The translations under genes and the position numbers were made by a program. Positions 2,941 through 20,246 of a stretch of 46,767 nt of DNA are shown here, in pieces; positions within the stretch are counted from its first letter, which is position 1; every line of letters begins with the position of its first letter. Under the pieces are notes generated by a model, which saw only the letters and a list, made by a program, of their open reading frames with translations, was not told where the DNA came from and did no database searches. Source of the stretch: Terriglobia bacterium (lineage in GTDB: Bacteria > Acidobacteriota > Terriglobia > Acidiferrales > UBA7541); contig JAIQES010000034.1 of assembly GCA_020073705.1 (NCBI GenBank), positions 1 through 46,767 on the forward strand, written 5' to 3'.

Positions 2941-3237
2941 TTACTGCGCACTGGGATGATGGGCGACACCCATGCGACGCATCTCTTCCGCGTAATACTT
3001 GCGATAGAGCAGGTCCCATTCTTCGCTTCCTTCGAGGATTTCCCTTTTCTGTGAGCTGATTTTCTTGCGGACTTCCGTGTCCACTGCCTCTTCTTCCTTG
3101 AGAAGCTCCTGAAGAATCTGCACGGTTTTTTGCCGGATGGTGTCGCGGTCTTCGATGAATTCGACTTCGTTGCTCGATACCAAAACGTCGGTGATGATAT
3201 GGGAGAGACGAATTGTCTTTTCGCGGCTCAGTCGCAT
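2941..3237 (-). CDS. DUF507 family protein (second of a tandem pair)
   Basis: A 98-residue, mostly helical and charged protein beginning MRLSREK and ending EEMRRMG plus a short tail, matching the small DUF507 family in length and pattern. The start at 3237 is chosen because family members begin with MRLSRE-like sequence. An in-frame upstream start at 3294 would add 19 unconserved residues. The ribosome-binding site is poor, consistent with translation coupled to the paralogue 67 bp upstream at 3305-3586. The family has no established biochemical role; it appears cytosolic. Confidence 0.8.
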   Translation of the reverse strand: MRLSREKTIRLSHIITDVLVSSNEVEFIEDRDTIRQKTVQILQELLKEEEAVDTEVRKKISSQKREILEGSEEWDLLYRKYYAEEMRRMGVAHHPSAQ

Positions 3238-3304
3238 CGGTTGGTTTTGGCTTTTCCCTTTCGCCCTGCTCCGCCACACAGGGGTAGCCGGCAAGTGACT
3301 GGCG

Positions 3305-3586
3305 CTAACGCAGGATCAACTTCCTCTGACGCGCCAGTTCGCCCTTCACTTTCTTGAACATTTCCTGATACGACGCGCCGGCACGGCGCATGTCATCTGC
3401 ATATTGCGTCAGAATCTGGCGAACCTCTTCGTTCACGCGGTCCTCAACACTGATTTCATCCTGCATCGCGATTCGCAGACGCTGCGCCAATGCATCGGCC
3501 GAAGGGGTCTCAACCATTTTCGACGCAACCAGCCGCTTGACGACTTCCCCTGCCATGTACGCCACGTAATCCCGCGAGAGCAGCAT
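3305..3586 (-). CDS. DUF507 family protein (first of a tandem pair)
   Basis: A 93-residue helical protein beginning MLLSRDYV and sharing the DUF507 layout of its downstream neighbour: N-terminal (M)xLSR helix, acidic middle (EISVEDRVNEEVRQIL), then DDMRRAG near the C-terminus where the partner has EEMRRMG. The two proteins look like diverged paralogues that may act together, for example as a heterodimer, though that is speculation. A GGGG-containing stretch precedes the start. Function unknown. Confidence 0.8.
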   Translation of the reverse strand: MLLSRDYVAYMAGEVVKRLVASKMVETPSADALAQRLRIAMQDEISVEDRVNEEVRQILTQYADDMRRAGASYQEMFKKVKGELARQRKLILR

Positions 3587-4663: not shown

Positions 4664-5143
4664 CTAGCGCTTCGATCTGCCGGCTCTTGTTCGCTTCGCT
4701 GCGCTTCGAATTCGGACAACTTGGACCGAGCATCCTGCATGTCGAATCACGGCTTCCGACACACTTCCCATGAGGAACCGGCCCAAACCTCTCCAGCCAT
4801 GTGAACCGAGGACGATTAAGTCAGGGTGCCACTCCGCCGCGCGATCGATGATTTTCACCTTCGGGTCTCCCGCGTCCACGATTCCCTTCGCTCTGAAACC
4901 GGCTTTTCGGAGCTTCCGGACCGCGCCCTGCACAAGTTTTTTCGCCTGTTTCCGCCGGTCTTCCTCCACCGCCGCGACGTAAGGGACCAAGTGCGGGACC
5001 ATCCCCGCGGAAATATAGGCAGCAATTGGTGCGACTACATGCAGCACTCGAACTAGATTCCCTTTAGGCTGAACTTGCTTGAGAAGGGAGCGGATCGCTT
5101 CCTGCGAGAATCGGGAATCGTCGATTGCTAAAATGATTCTCAT
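4664..5143 (-). CDS. Universal stress protein, single domain (UspA family)
   Basis: A 159-residue protein starting MRIILAIDDS, the first Usp strand with the adenine-contacting Asp. It contains GSHGWRGLGRFLMGSVSEA, a complete ATP-binding G-2x-G-9x-GS motif, and a basic tail (AAKRTRAGRSKR) that is unusual for the family. It is first gene of the leftward two-gene usp operon. A -10-like TAGCAT at 5192-5197 and a CRP/FNR-type operator centred 29.5 bp further out precede it. It probably binds ATP and signals or protects during energy stress. Confidence 0.92.
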   Translation of the reverse strand: MRIILAIDDSRFSQEAIRSLLKQVQPKGNLVRVLHVVAPIAAYISAGMVPHLVPYVAAVEEDRRKQAKKLVQGAVRKLRKAGFRAKGIVDAGDPKVKIIDRAAEWHPDLIVLGSHGWRGLGRFLMGSVSEAVIRHAGCSVQVVRIRSAAKRTRAGRSKR

Positions 5144-5218
5144 TGCACTTCTTCTAATCTTCGTGTGTTCCAGCCTCTTTAATCCGGCTCTATGCTAGGA
5201 CTATGGGGGAATGCTATC

Positions 5219-5234
5219 TGTGATCGCTCTCACC
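5219..5234 (-). promoter_or_regulatory. CRP/FNR-type operator, usp operon side
   Basis: TGTGATCGCTCTCACC matches TGTGA-N6-TCACA with one mismatch at the last base. On the minus strand a TAGCAT hexamer (5192-5197) begins 29.5 bp from the operator centre, exactly the class II geometry (operator centred near -41.5). It would drive the usp genes. Confidence 0.65.
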
Positions 5235-5240
5235 ATTGCA

Positions 5241-5256
5241 AGTGAGCAATGTCACA
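5241..5256 (+). promoter_or_regulatory. CRP/FNR-type operator, NAD-salvage side
   Basis: AGTGAGCAATGTCACA matches TGTGA-N6-TCACA with one mismatch at the first base. Its centre is 22 bp, two helical turns, from the operator at 5219-5234. A TAGGAT hexamer at 5283-5288 may be the -10 of the rightward unit, though its spacing (34.5 bp from centre) is looser. Confidence 0.55.
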
Positions 5257-5371
5257 TACAGGGCATCCTCATCACGCGCAAATAGGATTGACAGGAAGCA
5301 AGAAGTTGTTCTAGCGGAACGGGGATGCTGTTGGAATATTGGCGATCACTATGACAACGGAGTTTTAAGCC

Positions 5372-5548
5372 ATGCTTGAAATTACGCCGTCCTTGCTCAT
5401 CTTCTGCCGCCTATTCAACGCATTCGGGATAGCGCTACTGGCCTTGTTCCTGATTCGAGAAGGGGTCCTGACGGGGATGTTTCGGCTCACAGCACATGCG
5501 GCCCTGGCCCGTCATCGGCATCCTACGGCCGGCAGAGCGTCCAGATGA
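5372..5548 (+). CDS. Possible small membrane protein translationally coupled to pncB (58 aa)
   Basis: A 58-codon frame starts at ATG 5372 with GGAG nine bases upstream. It ends in TGA at 5546-5548, overlapping the pncB start as ATGA. Residues about 6-30 (PSLLIFCRLFNAFGIALLALFLI) form one plausible transmembrane helix, followed by a basic Arg/His-rich tail. pncB itself has no convincing ribosome-binding site, so coupling through this frame is attractive. I recognise no family. It could be a true small membrane protein or a leader whose translation delivers ribosomes to pncB. Confidence 0.45.
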   Translation: MLEITPSLLIFCRLFNAFGIALLALFLIREGVLTGMFRLTAHAALARHRHPTAGRASR

Positions 5549-6876
5549 GGATGGCTCTCTTTGCGGACCTCTACGAATTGACCATGGCGCAGGCATATCA
5601 AGCCGAACGTATGGATCAATTGGCGGTGTTTGAGCTTGCCTTTCGCGAGATGCCGCGGAACCGTAATTACATTGTTGCGGCCGGCTTTGAGGATGTCGCC
5701 GATTTCTTGACCACATTTCATTTCACTGCCGGCGAACTGGACTATTTGCGCGGGCGAGGGGAGTTTTCGGAGGAATTTCTCAAAAGCTTGGGATGTTTGA
5801 GATTCACCGGCGATGTTTATGCAGTGCCCGAAGGGACTGTTGTTTTCCCGAACGAACCCATGGTGCAGGTGATTGCGCCAATATTGGAAGCGCAGTTAGT
5901 CGAGACCTTTATCGTGAATCAGGTCCATTTTCAGAGCTTGGCGGTGAGCAAGGCTGCGCGCATTGTGACGGCCGCTCAGGGCCGGACGGTCGTGGATTTC
6001 GGCTCGCGGCGTTCCCCTGGAATCGATGCCGCCGTCAAAGTGGCCCGAGCCACTTATCTTGCCGGAGGAGATGGAACTTCAAACGTGCTGGCTGGGAAGA
6101 TCTGCGGCATACCAATATTCGGCACCATGGCGCACAGCTACATACAGGCGCACGACGAGGAATTCGCGTCGTTCGAATCCTTTGCGGCGCTCTATCCCGA
6201 AACCACCCTTCTGGTGGACACCTACGACACTCTCGAGGGTGTACGCAAGGTGATTGAACTAAGCAGAAAGCTCGGGGAGCGGTTTCACGTGCAGGCTGTG
6301 CGGCTGGATTCCGGCGATTTGGGCAACTTGGCGGCACACACGCGCAGGATGCTTGACGAAGCCGGTCTGCGAAGTGTGAAGATCTTCGCGTCGAGCGGCC
6401 TCGACGAATACAAGATTCAGGACCTCGTGAACTCCGCGGCGCCGATTGATGCATTTGGCGTGGGAACCAAACTGGCCGTGGTAGCGGATGCGCCGGAACT
6501 CGACATGGCTTACAAACTGGTGGAGTATAGCGGCAAGGGGCGCCTGAAGCTTTCAACAAGAAAGCTACTATACCCAGGTCGCAAACAAGTATTTCGGCAA
6601 GTTGAGAATGGGCAAATGGTGCGCGATGTGATCGGGCGATTTGATGAGCGACTGCCCGGAAAGCCGCTGCTTCAGCCGCTGTTGCTGAACGGCCAGCCGA
6701 TTACTCCCATCAATCTGAAAGAATCGCGAAAGCGCTTGCAAAGAGAATTGGAACAACTGCCACATCACTTTCACAAGCTGGAGCCAGTGTCGGCTCCCTA
6801 TCCCGTGAGTTTCAGCGAGCATTTGCGGGCTGACCTCAATGCCATTCGGCGGAGACTAGGATTTAGCAGTACTTGA
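5545..6876 (+). CDS. pncB: Nicotinate phosphoribosyltransferase
   Basis: A 443-residue NAPRTase that condenses nicotinate with PRPP, using ATP, to make nicotinate mononucleotide for NAD salvage. Visible landmarks are FADLYELTMAQAY (6-18), DFGSRR (151-156), GTMAHS (193-198) with the phosphorylatable His197, RLDSGDL and ASSGLDE of the phosphoribosyl site, and FGVGTKL. The length is normal. The start ATG overlaps the upstream 58-codon frame by four bases; a second ATG lies at 5551. It belongs to a rightward unit with an APH-fold phosphotransferase and a CysC-like kinase, opposite two usp genes. Its co-substrate PRPP could come from the synthetase at 19338. Placement with stress genes recalls the DosR-controlled second NAPRTase of mycobacteria. 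Confidence 0.95.
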   Translation: MRMALFADLYELTMAQAYQAERMDQLAVFELAFREMPRNRNYIVAAGFEDVADFLTTFHFTAGELDYLRGRGEFSEEFLKSLGCLRFTGDVYAVPEGTVVFPNEPMVQVIAPILEAQLVETFIVNQVHFQSLAVSKAARIVTAAQGRTVVDFGSRRSPGIDAAVKVARATYLAGGDGTSNVLAGKICGIPIFGTMAHSYIQAHDEEFASFESFAALYPETTLLVDTYDTLEGVRKVIELSRKLGERFHVQAVRLDSGDLGNLAAHTRRMLDEAGLRSVKIFASSGLDEYKIQDLVNSAAPIDAFGVGTKLAVVADAPELDMAYKLVEYSGKGRLKLSTRKLLYPGRKQVFRQVENGQMVRDVIGRFDERLPGKPLLQPLLLNGQPITPINLKESRKRLQRELEQLPHHFHKLEPVSAPYPVSFSEHLRADLNAIRRRLGFSST

Positions 6877-6945
6877 AGCGCACCCGATTCGGAGCCAGTC
6901 ATGGGCCGCGCGCCATTATGACGAAGATCTTGGAGGAACCCGATT

Positions 6946-8034
6946 ATGCCTGAACTGAAACTGGAACAGGTTGAGTACTACCTCAAGTCCCTCCTTGGAA
7001 AGGAGATAACCGTCCTGGGCTTAACTCCATTAGGCCATCCCCCTGAGGACAAGGCTCTGAAAGGTTATGGCTATGGGACCCCTCTGCGGGTCGATTACCA
7101 GGGCGCCGATCACCGGCGCCAAAGGGCCGTGCTGCACACGATGAGCCCGGGACCCTTTGGACACGAGCACATGGCGGACCGAGCCCAGGTCTTGCTTTGG
7201 GAAAATCAGGCATTCAATCACCTGCCTCGTCACGTCCGGTCCCTAGACGTAGGCGGCTTTCAATCCGACGGGGATCTGATTTCTCTGGGCAAGGTGGAGG
7301 AATTCTATTTGCTGACGGAGTATGCCGATGGCCAGGATTATTCCCTGGACCTCGAACGTCTCCGGGACAGTGATACGCTCACCGAACTCGATTTGGCTCG
7401 CGCCGATGCCCTGTGCGACTACTTGGTTAAAATTCATGCGGTGCCGGGGAATGATCCCGGGCTATATACGCGGCGCATCCGCGAATTAGTGGGACACGGA
7501 GAATGCATCATGGGCCTTACCGACTCCTACCCTCAGCATCCGCTCTTCACGGCGCAATTGCTTCAGGAGATCGAGCACCGATGCGTAAGGTGGCGATGGC
7601 GGTTGAAAAGTTTGAAACACCGGCTGCGCCAGATCCACGGGGATTTCCATCCGTGGAACATCCTGTTTCGGTCCGGAGTGGACTTCCGGCTCCTCGACCG
7701 TTCTCGAGGAGAGTACGGGGACCCCGCAGACGATGTAACCTGCCTGACATTGAATTATTTCTTTTTTTCCTTGCAGCGCAGCGGACGCCTGGAGGGAAGC
7801 CTGGAAACATTGTTTCTCCGCTTCTGGGAGCGTTACCTGGAAAAGAGTGGAGATCGTGAAATGCTTCGAGTGGTTGCCCCATTTTACGCTTTTCGGGGCC
7901 TGGTGGTTGCCAGTCCGCTTTGGTACCCCACCTTGTCGGATACAGTCCGTCAAAGACTCCTTGCATTTGTACTTGCCCTGCTGGAGAACGAGAGCTTTGA
8001 TCCCACTCACGTGAACACTTATTGTGGAGCGTAG
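6946..8034 (+). CDS. APH-fold phosphotransferase
   Basis: A 362-residue protein with the aminoglycoside-phosphotransferase/choline-kinase fold. The catalytic loop is HGDFHPWNILF (around residues 229-239), a Brenner motif with catalytic Asp. It is followed by LLDRSRGEYGDPADD, where the LLD Asp should bind Mg2+ and GDPADD is the usual family tail. The N-terminal lobe is poorly conserved. A GGAGGA ribosome-binding site precedes ATG 6946, 69 bp after pncB. The next gene, a P-loop kinase, overlaps its end by 11 bp, so the two proteins are probably made together. The substrate is unknown; antibiotic resistance is unlikely in this stress/NAD-salvage context, and a sugar, nucleoside or small-metabolite kinase is more probable. 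Confidence 0.8.
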   Translation: MPELKLEQVEYYLKSLLGKEITVLGLTPLGHPPEDKALKGYGYGTPLRVDYQGADHRRQRAVLHTMSPGPFGHEHMADRAQVLLWENQAFNHLPRHVRSLDVGGFQSDGDLISLGKVEEFYLLTEYADGQDYSLDLERLRDSDTLTELDLARADALCDYLVKIHAVPGNDPGLYTRRIRELVGHGECIMGLTDSYPQHPLFTAQLLQEIEHRCVRWRWRLKSLKHRLRQIHGDFHPWNILFRSGVDFRLLDRSRGEYGDPADDVTCLTLNYFFFSLQRSGRLEGSLETLFLRFWERYLEKSGDREMLRVVAPFYAFRGLVVASPLWYPTLSDTVRQRLLAFVLALLENESFDPTHVNTYCGA

Positions 8035-8560
8035 AATCCAAGACGGTTTTGCCGTGTGGATAACCGGTCTTCCAGCCTCCGGAAAATCGACTATCGTCGC
8101 ATCTTTGACGGCTCAACTCGCCGCTCGAGGGGTAGATGTGGCCGTACTTGAATCCGATTTGCTGCGGCAGATCTTTACCCCCCATCCGCGCTACGACGAG
8201 GAGGAACGCGATAATTTCTACAGGCAGATGGCTTATGTGGGCATTCTCCTCACCCAGCACGGCGTGCCCGTGATCTTCGACGCGACTGCCAACCGCCGCA
8301 TATACCGGGACCGAGTGCGGCAGCAAATTGCCAAATTCTTGGAGGTTTACGTGGACTGTCCCTTAACGATCTGTATTTCCCGAGATCCCAAGGGAATCTA
8401 TCGCGCAGCCCGCATGGGAACAGCAAATGCTGTACCTGGCCTTCAGGCAGTGTATGAGCCCCCTCAAGAGCCGGACTTGGTAGTGCGCGGGGACGAAGAG
8501 GCGCCTGAGGTTGCGGCTCAGCGAATCGTCGCCAAGCTGGTAGAAAAGGAGTACGTGTAG
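8024..8560 (+). CDS. CysC-like P-loop kinase (adenylylsulfate kinase family)
   Basis: A 178-residue kinase with Walker A GLPASGKST at about residues 15-23. The segments SDLLRQIFTPHPRYDEEERDNF, FDATANRR, VDCPL and ISRDPKGIYRAAR, and the YEPPQEPDL finish all follow the APS-kinase layout. APS kinase phosphorylates adenylylsulfate to PAPS. Without ATP sulfurylase nearby, and paired with an APH-fold protein, another substrate is possible. It starts with GTG 8024 inside the preceding gene (11 bp overlap), indicating coupling. Some bacteria carry an APH-like and a P-loop kinase domain fused in one chain; this may be the unfused form. Confidence 0.82.
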   Translation: MERRIQDGFAVWITGLPASGKSTIVASLTAQLAARGVDVAVLESDLLRQIFTPHPRYDEEERDNFYRQMAYVGILLTQHGVPVIFDATANRRIYRDRVRQQIAKFLEVYVDCPLTICISRDPKGIYRAARMGTANAVPGLQAVYEPPQEPDLVVRGDEEAPEVAAQRIVAKLVEKEYV

Positions 8561-8611
8561 AGACGCCGCAGGCTTCCCATCGTTACCAACCTACCAGGTT
8601 CAGGTCATTCG

Positions 8612-8648
8612 AATCCGATTAAGCCCGGATTTCCGATTTGCAAATCGG
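8612..8648. repeat. Two adjacent palindromes downstream of the kinase gene
   Basis: AATCCG (8612-8617) pairs with CGGATT (8626-8631) over an eight-base loop. Immediately after, CCGATTTGCAAATCGG (8633-8648) is a perfect 16 bp palindrome. They lie between the kinase stop and the IS1380 fragment. They may act as a transcription end, an insertion-site remnant or a protein-binding site; there is no clear T-tract. Confidence 0.5.
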
Positions 8649-8729
8649 CGATAAGAGCGTAGAAGATCTGCATCGCCTGTGTTCATGCGTGAGCCGAGCA
8701 CACGGAAGCCTTCCGGAGGTGAACACCCA

Positions 8730-8976
8730 GTTGGGTGAGAGCCACAATCAGATCTTTCAACTTTCCTTCAACAGGTTTTTGCGCGTAGATTTTCAAGGAT
8801 CACGGGTGACTTCGGATGGCGGTCTGCTGCTCGTTCGCGAACTCGATGAACGCCTCGGTCTGACAGGACTCACTCAGGATCACTTGGTGGATCTGTTCCG
8901 GCAGTCCGCCTACAACCGCGGAGAGATTAAAGTTGAAAATCGAACATTTCGCTTGACATTACTAATAAGGAGGTGA
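8730..8976 (+). pseudogene. IS1380-family transposase remnant, N-terminal part
   Basis: From about 8755 the frame reads FNRFLRVDFQGSRVTSDGG followed by LLLVRELDERLGL, the characteristic start of IS1380-type DDE transposases. After LVDLFRQSAYNR it collapses into unrelated residues and stops at 8976, with no catalytic core. The natural continuation (Arg-Leu-Ala-Gly-Tyr-type segment) is missing, so the copy is internally deleted and dead. No intact terminal repeats were recognised. A middle fragment of the same transposase type lies at 39165-39494. Confidence 0.72.
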
Positions 8977-8979
8977 TAC

Positions 8980-9105
8980 ATGCCTCTACCAGTATTACAA
9001 GCCGGATTATTCTCCGGTTTCGAGGGCTCCGTATTCGGGGTTCTGAACGCTCTCGCTAAGGGTTGGGCGAGGGTGCGGCAGCATCCGCAGGTCCTAAATC
9101 GATAG
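8980..9105 (+). CDS. Possible 41-residue small protein with an exceptionally strong Shine-Dalgarno
   Basis: AAGGAGGTGAT at 8967-8977 is an uninterrupted 11-base complement to the usual 16S rRNA 3' end, ideally spaced before ATG 8980. The frame runs 41 codons to TAG 9103 (MPLPVLQAGLFSGF..., ending HPQVLNR). It is mildly amphipathic with no clear membrane helix. TTGACA occurs at 8953-8958. The TonB receptor gene starts 18 bp later, so this could be a genuine short protein, a leader peptide, or a sequence that arrived with the adjacent transposon debris. No family is recognised. Confidence 0.4.
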   Translation: MPLPVLQAGLFSGFEGSVFGVLNALAKGWARVRQHPQVLNR

Positions 9106-9122
9106 TGAAAATGGGGGTGTTT

Positions 9123-12100
9123 ATGAAGTCACTTCATCGCCTTTTCCATTTGTTGGGCATGTGTGTTGCTTTCTTCTTGCTGAGTCTGTCCGCCTACGGG
9201 CAGGGCGGAGATGTGGGCAGTATTATCGGGCAGATTACTGACAAAAGCGGCGGAGCACTGGCCGGCGCCACGGTCAGCGTCATCGATACGCAGAGAGGTG
9301 TTACGCGTACTCTGACGACGGATGACAATGGCTCATACTTCGCGCCCAACCTGACGCCCGGCACCTACACAGTTAGGGCCGAATACACAGGTTTTCAAAC
9401 GCTGGAGCGGCGAAACATACTGGTCCAGGTCACGCAGCAACTCCGAATCGACCTCTCCCTACAGCCGGGTGAGCAAACGCAGACGATCACTGTCACGGAA
9501 GAAGCTCCCCTGGTGGAAACCACGAACGCCACTCTCGGTGGCGTGCTCAGCAACGAACTCATCAGCGACCTGCCCCTCAACGGCCGCAACTTCAACCGGC
9601 TGCTGGACCTGCAACCGGGCTTCTACGTCCAGCCGGGCAGCGGCAAATGGGGCCAACAATCCAACGGAATGCGCGCTGAGCACAACATTTACATCCTCAA
9701 CGGTATTGACACCGTGGAAGGATTCTCGTCCCAGAGCGTGCTGAATGCCACTCCTGTGTTCGGCGACACCACTACGGTTCTGCCGATTGACGCCATCCAG
9801 GAGTTCAAAACCGAACAGAATCCTTCCGCGGAGTTCGGCTGGAAACCCGGCGCCATTGTGAATGTGGGCTTGAAGTCCGGCACCAATAGTTTCCATGGCA
9901 CGGCCAACGCGTTTGGGCGCGCCGACTTCTTGGACGCCACGAACCCTTTCATCAATTTCGCCAATGCGGCCAATCTGGCTAAAGGTTCGAATGTCCTCTC
10001 CGCGAAGCAGCAGACAGCCATCGAGACCTTTGGCGCCACCCTGGGCGGCCCCATTGTCAGGAACAGGTTGTTCTTCTTCATCGGTTACGAGGGGCAAAGG
10101 AATCACATCAGCGCCCCGTCCGCGTCGGGCTCGTTGCCGACGGTTGACCCCCTGACGTCGAGTACTCCCCTAAACAAGGTCACCTGGAGCGCACTTGACG
10201 CCTGTAATCAACTCACGACGGCGCCCAGTCCTCTCAGCCTCAAGCTGGCCGGCCTGACTTATGGCGGGCCTGGCAATTGCGCCGTGACTTCACCGTACAC
10301 CGGCATTTTCATCACCGCTCCTACTGAGGGCATCGACTTGGTGACACCGATTGGCGATAGCACGTCAAACAACGGGCTCGCCAAAGTTGATTATCATTTG
10401 AATGAAAAGAACACGCTCAGCGGCGAATTCTTTATTGGAAACTGGGACGGATTGGGATTTCAGGGTTCTCCCCTCCAGCCTTATTGGGACATCCGGTCGC
10501 ACGCAAAAGCCATGATCATAGGAACCCACTGGACGTGGCTGCCGAAATCCAGCGTAGTGAACGAGGCGCATTTCGGCGTGAACCGTTTCTACCAACCAAG
10601 CTACCCGGGCGATTGCGGCAGTATTGGGCAGCCGTCGGGCGAACAGGGCATCAATTGGGGCACTCAGTCAACAATTATTCCCCAGACCGGTCTTTCCGGG
10701 AATTGCGGGATGCCGACCATCAGTATTTCAGGCTTCACAAACAATGGTATTGGTTGCTGCTCTTCGTTCCCCAAGATGCAGGGTCCGGACTACACCATCC
10801 AGGTTGACGAAGCCTTGTCCTACCTCCATGGGGCTCATTCGTTTAAGTTCGGCGGCGAAGCGCGCCGCATGAGCACTTTCGAAGGGACCTTTCAGGGCTC
10901 GCGCGGAAACATTGTATTCCCGCCCACGACCACGACAGGTTGCACGAGTATTCCTATTCCTACGACCTGCGTGACAGGGCTCATGAAATTCATGCTCGGC
11001 ACCACATCCTCAACGACTCTTCCTTCGGAACTAGTGGGCACCCCGAACGTCCACGTGTCGAATCATGGTTATGCGCTGTTTGCGCAGGACGATTGGCGCA
11101 TCAGGCGCAGTTTAACGCTAAATTTGGGCGTGCGTTTCGAGCGCGTCTCGCCGTTGCAGGAAGCTCACAATCAGTTGGCTAACTTCGACCCCTCCACACC
11201 CACAGGCCTGACGCAGCTTGGCCTAACAAAGAACATCTTCCCCGCCTGGAATAACTTTGCACCGCGCATCGGATTTGCCTGGGACATAACAGGCAATTCC
11301 AAGTGGGTGCTGCGTGGCGGATTCAATATGATTTACGTGCTGGAAGGCTTCAACGATTTCATCTCCCAGCAGAACACCAACCCTATCACCACCGGTCTGA
11401 ACACGATTCCCAGCGGGGCTACCCTGCATACTTGTGTTCTGGCAGGCACAACCTGTACTGACACCCCCGTGGCAGGCCCTGGCAACATGCAAACGGTGAT
11501 ACTTCCATTCCAGTCGATTAACTGGGCAGCCTGGAACTCGGCCACAAACCCAGCAGTTTTCCCCAGTGTGACGTCCATCGTTTGCGGTGACCCAAGGCTT
11601 GCTGCTCCGAACAGCACCCCCTGCGCGATCATGGCCGTAGATCCGAATCTGAAGAGGGCCTACGTGCCGGGCTGGAGCATCGGTATCCAGCACGCTTTCA
11701 CCAACTCCCTATCGCTACAAGTCGTTTACGTCGGAAACCATGGCGTAAGGCTACTGGGCTTGAATGACGCCAACCCGCCGGCGCCGGGCTCCGGATGGGA
11801 AGCGTATAGCTCCACGAACAAGACGTGCAGCCCCGGTGGTGCGCCAGGGGGGTCCATCAGTCAGACCTGCCAGAATCTCAGCAGAAAATACTTTAGTAAG
11901 TTCCCCTATTTGTCCCAAATCAATGAAATGCAGAATCTGGATGCGAGCAAGTACAACTCGTTGCAGGTGACATTAACCCAGCGGGCGTGGCATCGACTGA
12001 ATTACGTATTGGGCTACGTCTACGGCCATTGTTTTGAGATGATGTCGAGGGCTGGGGCCGCGGGCGGCTCTTGGCTCCCCGGGAACATATATAACGTTGC

Positions 12101-19337: not shown

Positions 19338-20246
19338 TCATCGGGTCCCTTCATCCCATGATGAAAGAAAGGATTTTTGGAGCAGCGGCGCTGTCGAAAG
19401 GACAGTAATGCTTGTTGCTTCGATGTCTGTGCGCAGGGGGACTGTGTCAGCGCAGAATATGTGTTTTACCCGGAGCGACCATAATTTTGTCCAATTTGTC
19501 CCCGTAAACAGACCGTGTGTGACTAGAATGTAGATCTCTTCGACGTTGGCTTCCGTAAGCTTTTCACAGGCAGAAACGAGGGTCCCGCCAGTATCGAGCA
19601 TGTCGTCGATGATCACGACTCTGGAACCTACTTTGCCAATCGGACCGTGATGGATTATCCCTTTCTCAGTCCGGCTTTTCTCAAAGTATGGTGTATCCGA
19701 AATCGGCATTCCTGCCGCGGCTTTGACTGCTTCACAACGCCGAATTGCCCCATTGTCCGGAGCCACGATGGTTGCGTCGGTTAGCCGTTGTTTTCTTATG
19801 GCCGTCCCAAAGATACCAGCCGTGGAAAGGGAGATGAGGGGCAGGGGGAACAATTGTTTGTCGCGTTCGCTGTGTACGTCCACCGTGAGGACCTGATCAA
19901 ATCCGGAGATTCTCAGCAGAGACCCAATCCAGGCGGTTGCCAAGCTTTCTCCGGGCTTGTCTTTGTCCTGCCGGCTGTAGGCAAGATAAGGAAGAATGGC
20001 TGTCAGCTTCTCCGCTCCCTCTTTCTTAAGCGTGTGGGCAAGCAATAGGATAGACAACGCCTGCTCGTCCGGAGGAGCAATTGAACCGAGAATGAAGCAG
20101 TGCTCGCCGGAGACGGGCCCATGTGTAATGGCGTACAATTCCTGGTTGTCGTACCGAGCGATCGTAAATTGCCCCAGGCGGAGAAAAGGAACGGTCTGCA
20201 GCTGGCGCGCGATATGTCCATAATCCGGAAAGCTAAAGAGGATCAT
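19338..20246 (-). CDS. prs: Ribose-phosphate pyrophosphokinase (PRPP synthetase)
   Basis: A 302-residue enzyme making PRPP from ribose 5-phosphate and ATP. The PRPP-binding loop VVIIDDMLDTGGTLVSAC is clear. LPYLAYSRQDKDKPGES corresponds to the ATP flexible loop, and VLTVDVHSER to the catalytic His region. The DKxKPGES wording and the absence of the usual DLHAxQIQGFF make it look closer to archaeal-type (class III) synthetases than to housekeeping bacterial Prs. That suggests a second, stress-linked isozyme, possibly without ADP/Pi regulation. It lies 62 bp downstream of the hibernation-factor gene on the same strand and can feed the PncB reaction encoded at 5545. Confidence 0.9.
   Translation of the reverse strand: MILFSFPDYGHIARQLQTVPFLRLGQFTIARYDNQELYAITHGPVSGEHCFILGSIAPPDEQALSILLLAHTLKKEGAEKLTAILPYLAYSRQDKDKPGESLATAWIGSLLRISGFDQVLTVDVHSERDKQLFPLPLISLSTAGIFGTAIRKQRLTDATIVAPDNGAIRRCEAVKAAAGMPISDTPYFEKSRTEKGIIHHGPIGKVGSRVVIIDDMLDTGGTLVSACEKLTEANVEEIYILVTHGLFTGTNWTKLWSLRVKHIFCADTVPLRTDIEATSITVLSTAPLLQKSFLSSWDEGTR

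Follow-up and report, generated by a model that had tools for sequence, protein, structure and literature searches.

A near-obligate pair of an APH-fold phosphotransferase and a CysC-like kinase, possibly a two-kinase module acting on a ribose-type sugar or a nucleoside

Introduction

Two kinase genes of different families overlap in the genome of a Terriglobia bacterium, the first coding for an APH-fold phosphotransferase and the second for a relative of the APS kinase CysC, and their arrangement raises the question of whether the two proteins belong together and on what substrate they would act. An earlier note on this DNA had read them as one functional unit, a two-domain kinase encoded in two separate genes, lying behind stress operators and perhaps tied to NAD or PRPP economy. 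Here we analysed the pair in its window, by which we mean the whole stretch of 46,767 nucleotides (contig JAIQES010000034.1), in the remainder of its genome, which is 3.79 Mb and 97% complete, and in relatives from other bacteria and archaea.

Results

The gene pair in the window

The pair, the gene ahead of it and the motifs discussed below are located as follows.

5545-6876, plus strand: pncB, nicotinate phosphoribosyltransferase (NF006696, 602.3 bits against a cutoff of 503)
6946-8034, plus strand: APH-fold phosphotransferase, 362 aa, ATG start, first kinase of the pair (PF01636, E 7e-10)
7636-7659, plus strand: APH catalytic loop HGDFHPWN, residues 231-238, with H231, G232, D233, F234, H235, P236 and N238 invariant in 80 rows
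7696-7734, plus strand: motif DRSRGEYGDPADD, residues 251-263, metal-binding in the APH fold, with D251, R252, R254, G255, G258, A261 and D263 invariant in 80 rows
8024-8034, plus strand: overlap of the APH gene and the CysC-like gene, 11 bp
8024-8560, plus strand: CysC-like P-loop kinase of the DAT clade, 178 aa, GTG start, second of the pair (PF01583 APS_kinase, E 6.9e-36)
8066-8089, plus strand: Walker A motif or P-loop GLPASGKS of the CysC-like protein, with G20 and K21 invariant in 76 rows
8279-8293, plus strand: DATAN motif, residues 86-90, with D86 and T88, in place of the ISPY loop of APS kinase

The claimed 11-bp overlap and the position behind pncB were borne out by ORF coordinates and family matches. 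The pncB gene ends 69 bp before the APH gene on the same strand; it is a neighbour and probably no fixed part of the module. Judged by their sequences, both members of the pair keep their kinase catalytic residues. Directly 3' of the pair, a short ORF (8638-8976, plus strand) matches positions 2-47 of the DDE transposase profile PF13701 slightly below its cutoff and is likely a transposase remnant. On the other side, DUF507 is split across two adjoining ORFs (2941-3586, minus strand) that match profile positions 1-93 and 89-181.

Recurrence of the pair in relatives

A profile scan of named genomes with the APH protein returned 475 relatives, the best 80 of which were analysed. A CysC-like gene lay on the same locus in 76 of these best 80, and 71 of the 76 pairs were separated by a gap of between -115 and +98 bp. 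An 11-bp overlap was counted in 14 of the 76 relatives, although exact overlap counts depend on the choice of start codon, since the start of each relative was taken as the candidate nearest to that of the window protein. Three of the four loci without a CysC-like gene (L044, L063 and L087) stop 3 to about 350 bases past the APH gene; in the fourth, L054, the gene was absent within the 6-kb flank. According to their titles, the 80 loci come from Acidobacteriota, Nitrospirota, NC10, Planctomycetota, Myxococcota, beta- and deltaproteobacterial MAGs and Bathyarchaeota. The pair occurs in soil and groundwater bacteria as well as in archaea. The joint recurrence of the APH and CysC-like genes exceeds chance. 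A mirror-tree comparison of 73 pairs gave r = 0.857, a value that would be expected anyway for co-inherited neighbours.

For residue comparisons, the APH alignment (A6) combined the window protein with L005 and with the named loci other than L044 and L077 (78 of 80), and the CysC-like alignment (A7) held the window protein and 75 of the 76 relatives (without the truncated L076). The named loci and the genome set searched below overlap in part (for example, L205 and L052). Across 157 loci no ORF matched both profiles, and the proposal that the pair corresponds to a fused protein split into two genes thus found no support in this fusion check.

The CysC-like protein forms a clade apart from APS kinase

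One reading of the second kinase is that it is still an APS kinase making PAPS, with the APH protein using or accompanying sulfation, and several matches favour it. The best family of the protein is APS kinase; it narrowly missed the apsK equivalog TIGR00455 (138.3 bits against a cutoff of 138.7), and 17 of its 76 relatives reach E-values that correspond roughly to the apsK cutoff. Among solved structures, its profile matched at E 1e-5 APS kinases and, far more weakly, seryl-tRNA kinases, and nothing else. Against this reading stands the phylogeny: in a tree of 75 hand-picked rows, 27 canonical and 48 DAT-type rows were split with support of 100/100, and the split retained an SH-aLRT of 100 when the motif columns were removed. 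The tree therefore separates the clade of the CysC-like protein from that of canonical APS kinase.

The two groups differ most clearly at the ISPY site, where the consensus of the DAT clade is DAT(A/G)N. Both D86 and T88 are present in 48/48 DAT rows and in 0/27 canonical rows; position 86 is A, S or C in the canonical rows, and the P of ISPY is replaced by N, S or H. Elsewhere, the canonical Asn at position 65 becomes F, V, L or A in the DAT rows, I, V or L at position 66 becomes Y (48/48), Phe at position 137 becomes V, L, I or M, and T at position 138 becomes P (48/48). Residues common to at least 85% of both groups include K21, D45, R48, R62, R95, R120 and Y126, among others.

These positions can be related to M. 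tuberculosis CysC, for which the structural account (PMC4373884) gives Asp480 as the proposed base, Lys562 as stabilising charge, Arg483 and Arg497 as holding the phosphosulfate, and Phe492 and Phe576 as stacking the adenine. Motif-based mapping of these residues onto the window protein equates Asp480 with D45, Lys562 with K123, Arg483 with R48, Arg497 with R62, Phe492 with Y57 and Phe576 with V137, which puts Y57 and V137 at the sites of the two stacking Phe residues. K123 is replaced by R or T in some archaeal and class-b members (the latter described below). By this mapping, the proposed base, both Arg residues that bind the anion and the P-loop are retained, one of the two stacking Phe residues is lost and the loop beneath the phosphosulfate is altered; R48 and R62 would suit APS too. 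The protein would accordingly be an active kinase for an acceptor with a hydroxyl pair and an anionic group that lacks the usual adenine contact, and we consider it probable that it is not an APS kinase. The departure of its pocket from that of APS kinase, together with the separate clade and the DAT motif, agrees with the earlier note's description of the protein as CysC-like. Because the protein sits in a separate branch with an altered substrate pocket, the pair probably acts on some other sugar or nucleoside.

As to the sulfur background of the genome, it had been claimed that no sulfate-assimilation partners are present, and searches with PF01583, PF01507 and PF01747 indeed found nothing further on the window's contig, but a CysD-like and a CysH-like gene lie on another contig. 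In the whole genome, neither a second CysC (PF01583) nor an ATP sulfurylase (PF01747) was found, and a genome with CysD-like and CysH-like genes and no other CysC is what an APS kinase in the pair would fit. However, the CysH-like protein carries CC and CxxC pairs, a signature of APS reductases, so sulfate assimilation in this genome probably does not require PAPS. Moreover, of 24 genomes searched, 7 contain both the pair type and a canonical CysC (at least 183 bits with PF01583).

Co-occurrence of the two kinases, linked or not

The two genes were also followed across whole genomes. In 297 Acidobacteriota genomes, APH relatives were found in 6 by a search with one protein as query at E 1e-10, which distant relatives may escape. 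CysC-like matches above 200 bits occurred in 5, exactly the genomes with a non-degenerate APH protein; the sixth APH genome, G145, has a degenerate APH protein and no CysC-like match. The next 15 CysC-like matches in this phylum comprised 14 with (I/V)SPY, 1 with ISPC and 0 with DAT. The APH relative of G145 (L006, 1501-2577, minus strand) has the catalytic loop HGEFRPDH and is possibly a decayed or repurposed copy. That of G026 (L007, 688-2019, minus strand) matches over residues 197-358 only and is followed at about 290 bp by a CysC-like gene; its N-terminal part looks broken or misassembled.

In the phylum to which L060 (a Nitrospira) belongs, APH relatives are present in 112 of 198 genomes; they fall into two score classes, a and b, and 20 loci were taken from each. 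In class a, CysC adjoins APH in 19/20 loci, and the twentieth genome, G688, carries CysC elsewhere. In class b, CysC is on 1/20 loci, 4 kb from APH, and never adjoins it; a CysC-like gene with DAT(A/G)N is present somewhere in 19/20 of the genomes. The APH genes of the class-b loci (L185-L204) make up a second subfamily that is not linked to the CysC-like partner, and a gene read by eye as uvrC-like is often near them. In Bathyarchaeota, the phylum of L085, APH relatives were found in 37 of 250 genomes; CysC is on 27 of the 37 APH loci, on either side of APH, and 9 of the 10 others carry it elsewhere.

In a second set of genomes, the DAT type was present in 32 of 34 with APH (30 of which had been chosen for CysC not adjoining APH) as compared with 1 of 25 without APH; inclusion of G145, which was left out of this table, would give 32/35. 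The APH genomes without the DAT type were G717 and G322. In the single genome with the DAT type and without APH, G575, a contig begins 117 bases from the gene, so its APH gene may have been cut off. Nine CysC genes of APH-less genomes and that of G717 all carried the canonical motif (I/V)(S/A)PY. Fisher tests gave p = 3.6e-13 for the second set and 3.2e-10 for Acidobacteriota, uncorrected for kinship; since many loci share common ancestry, neither these values nor the neighbour counts represent independent events. Co-occurrence of the pair is near-obligate. The claim that the two genes are one functional unit is thus supported both by their adjacency in 76 of the best 80 of 475 relatives and by their co-occurrence even where they are unlinked.

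Fold of the APH protein

The APH protein scored 39.5 bits with PF01636 (cutoff 23.2), and its profile gave no match to a solved structure at E 0.01. A confident AlphaFold2 model (pLDDT 90.3, pTM 0.89) was compared with known structures by two methods. In VIA-align, the top match was the 5-methylthioribose kinase 9a5i, an integrative model (Z 22.1, rmsd 4.3, 318 residues aligned), with 2pyw at Z 21.7; 25-hydroxysteroid kinase (21.5) and Rv3168 (21.5) tied with these 5-methylthioribose kinases, and the first antibiotic kinase was APH(3')-Ia at Z 18.0. Ordered by Foldseek E-value, the list was headed by Rv3168, followed by APH(4)-Ia, with 5-methylthioribose kinase in sixth place. On the grouping with antibiotic kinases, a point raised in the earlier note, the two methods were divided: VIA-align favours the 5-methylthioribose kinases (22.1 against 18.0), but Foldseek places an antibiotic kinase second. 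As far as the model shows, the substrate is not nameable from the APH fold alone. A kinase similar to 5-methylthioribose kinase, the 5-deoxyribose kinase DrdK, salvages a SAM by-product (PMC6079011).

Neighbouring genes and a possible link to SAM by-products

Neighbouring genes were scanned in three sets of hand-chosen rows from which mostly short or very long ORFs were left out (A4, 73 of 77 upstream genes; A5, 67 of 73 downstream genes; A8, 110 of 130), and the 25 commonest families were listed. Because the ORF caller prefers the longest ORFs, some of the neighbours counted are spurious. Among the best 80 of 475 relatives, an archaeal-type SAM synthetase over the NCBIfam cutoff was present in 11 loci and was the next downstream gene in 7 of the 67 scanned. 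Upstream genes included SAM hydroxide adenosyltransferase (2/73), a PP-loop ThiI-like gene (7/73) and FBPase_3 (4/73, with 1/67 downstream; over its cutoff), and IMPase accounted for 5 of 67 downstream genes. Outside the window, neighbours hint at sugar phosphatases as well as at SAM by-products. The link was also seen in the 37 archaeal loci, 13 of which carry an SAH/MTA deaminase-like gene and 13 an SAH hydrolase (TIGR00936, over cutoff), with one or the other in 20; IMPase is present in 4. The closest solved relative of the deaminase-like gene is an MTA/SAH deaminase, and the representatives of the deaminase, IMPase and PfkB families fall below the curated cutoffs of the NCBIfam models that bear those names. 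Archaeal gene orders vary (CysC-APH-deaminase in L161 and L168, APH-SAH hydrolase in L178), and the variation of neighbours between loci indicates that the two genes move together as a unit of their own.

A PfkB nucleoside kinase lies near APH in 8 of the 20 class-b Nitrospirota loci, a count that leaves out L197, a distant PfkB of 23% identity. The pair and a PfkB kinase occur together in G229, G278, G300 and G307. We considered whether the CysC-like protein replaces a PfkB adenosine kinase; this idea was dropped, since class-b Nitrospirota and these four other genomes carry both.

In the window itself no SAM-cycle gene lies beside the pair, and ahcY is on another contig of the genome. Among the 80 loci, the only one with an Acidobacteria title to carry SAM synthetase is L028. 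The presence of ahcY in 74 of 80 genomes and of PF01008 in 76 of 80 does not discriminate, as both occur with or without the pair. A link to SAM by-products has more neighbourhood support than one to NAD or PRPP, though this support lies outside the window.

Stress operators and the NAD or PRPP link

The stress operators claimed for the locus were not borne out by the patterns tried. No inverted repeat was reported in 5100-5600 and no sigma-70-like promoter in 5000-9300, and a DosR-box pattern had 0 matches in the window, its looser version giving 8 against 8.4 expected. As for NAD or PRPP economy, the window does hold a PRPP-synthetase-like gene (19338-20246, minus strand) as well as pncB, but a pncB-like gene was found in the flanks of only 8 of the best 80 of 475 relatives, and a Usp gene in 10; neither the Usp nor the NAPRT cluster had a member in the 37 archaeal loci. 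The proposed link is therefore weak. Near the PRPP-synthetase-like gene are S30AE/cold-shock, tRNA-editing (YbaK-type) and sigma-factor genes, and two Usp genes lie near the pair. The M. tuberculosis gene Rv2004c belongs to the DosR regulon (PMC8701281, PMC5309233).

Discussion

The two genes form a conserved pair, which we regard as a two-kinase module with high confidence. What the module does can be proposed more tentatively: it may be dedicated to a ribose-type or nucleoside substrate that comes from SAM by-products and is not APS. The APH-fold protein, in the manner of 5-methylthioribose kinase, would phosphorylate a nucleoside or a small sugar of the ribose type, and the DAT-type CysC would then phosphorylate the product at a second hydroxyl. 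The latter protein would be a neofunctionalised APS-kinase paralogue that kept the catalytic base, both Arg residues that bind the anion and, in the case of the window protein, the Lys stabilising the transition state, and that partly lost the adenine pocket. The substrate would most likely derive from the nucleoside part of SAM by-products, such as adenosine, inosine, ribose or a relative; that it is SAM-derived at all we put forward as a tentative suggestion. The order of steps, the substrate and the pathway are what we infer from the comparisons above. A more speculative and rather doubtful extension is a two-step route, present in several bacterial phyla and in Bathyarchaeota, by which the APH-fold sugar kinase and the CysC-derived kinase would convert a ribose-type product of SAM by-products into a sugar bisphosphate that would enter central metabolism via FBPase/IMPase-type enzymes.

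Four other explanations bear on this proposal. The pair might belong to a stress or dormancy island serving NAD or PRPP economy, as pncB upstream, the two Usp genes and the PRPP-synthetase-like, S30AE/cold-shock, YbaK-type and sigma-factor genes of the window would suggest; such neighbours are a minority among the relatives, the 37 archaeal loci have no member of the Usp or NAPRT cluster, and no DosR-type operator was found in the window, so we hold this to be unlikely. It is similarly improbable that the two proteins make up one heteromeric kinase with one subunit mainly regulatory or scaffolding. Near-obligate co-occurrence and the tight overlap at many loci are what such a complex would predict, but the catalytic residues are invariant in both proteins, and CysC adjoins APH in none of the 20 class-b loci. 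A joint model of the two proteins, built on 11 rows, reached a pTM of 0.54, which speaks neither for nor against a complex.

Canonical APS kinase activity we rank low. The family and structure matches, the conserved D45, R48 and R62 and the CysD-like and CysH-like genes are weighed against the Asp and Thr of DAT in every row of the clade, the loss of Asn65 and Phe137, the coexisting canonical CysC and an occurrence that tracks the APH gene, and together these leave the activity improbable. Ranked lower still is an antibiotic-modifying or defence function, which is suggested by the APH family name, by the antibiotic kinases among the fold matches and by Rv2004c, a possible distant analogue for which mild phosphorylation of streptomycin is reported (PMC8701281). 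No match was found in PADLOC, in the plasmid collection or in viral contigs, a search of solved structures with the APH profile gave none at E 0.01, and a distribution over bacteria and archaea with the second kinase as a fixed companion speaks against such a function, which we consider very improbable.

If the two-step route to a sugar bisphosphate is real, it would be previously undescribed and would show the APS-kinase fold in a new role, with sugar phosphates as substrates; a search of the literature on the pair, on CysC paralogues and on SAH/deaminase recycling found no description of the pair in open-licence PMC papers. In all rows read, DAT(A/G)N as opposed to ISPY separates the CysC paralogue from true APS kinase. 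Since about 17 of 76 members score at the level of the apsK cutoff, genomes with the DAT paralogue can be wrongly credited with a PAPS route. The near-obligate kinase pair is now named, and its substrate is directly testable.

Among known systems, APS kinase CysC shares with the second kinase its fold family, the P-loop Lys, the catalytic Asp D45, both anion-binding Arg residues and, in the window protein, K123; it differs in having the ISPY-type loop where the paralogue has DAT(A/G)N, in the stacking Phe that the paralogue has lost, in its 100/100 separate clade and in an occurrence that, for the paralogue, follows the APH gene. The Campylobacter cytidine diphosphoramidate kinase Cj1415 is likewise a CysC-like enzyme with a different acceptor, in a different pathway, and is likened here by description alone. 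The first kinase has its top VIA-align fold matches in the 5-methylthioribose kinase MtnK; their identity is 13-14%, the steroid kinase and Rv3168 are tied with it, and neither an MtnA-type isomerase nor a fuculose-phosphate aldolase was among the 25 commonest neighbour families. The PfkB nucleoside or adenosine kinases (PDB 3b1n, 4o1g) resemble the module in having a relative near APH in class-b loci, but they belong to the PfkB family, neither APH nor P-loop, and class-b genomes hold the CysC-like gene too. Finally, Rv2004c of M. tuberculosis, an APH/AAA_33 fusion likened by description alone, shares the idea of an APH-like protein joined to a P-loop kinase; here, in contrast, the two are separate genes and the second kinase is of the CysC type.
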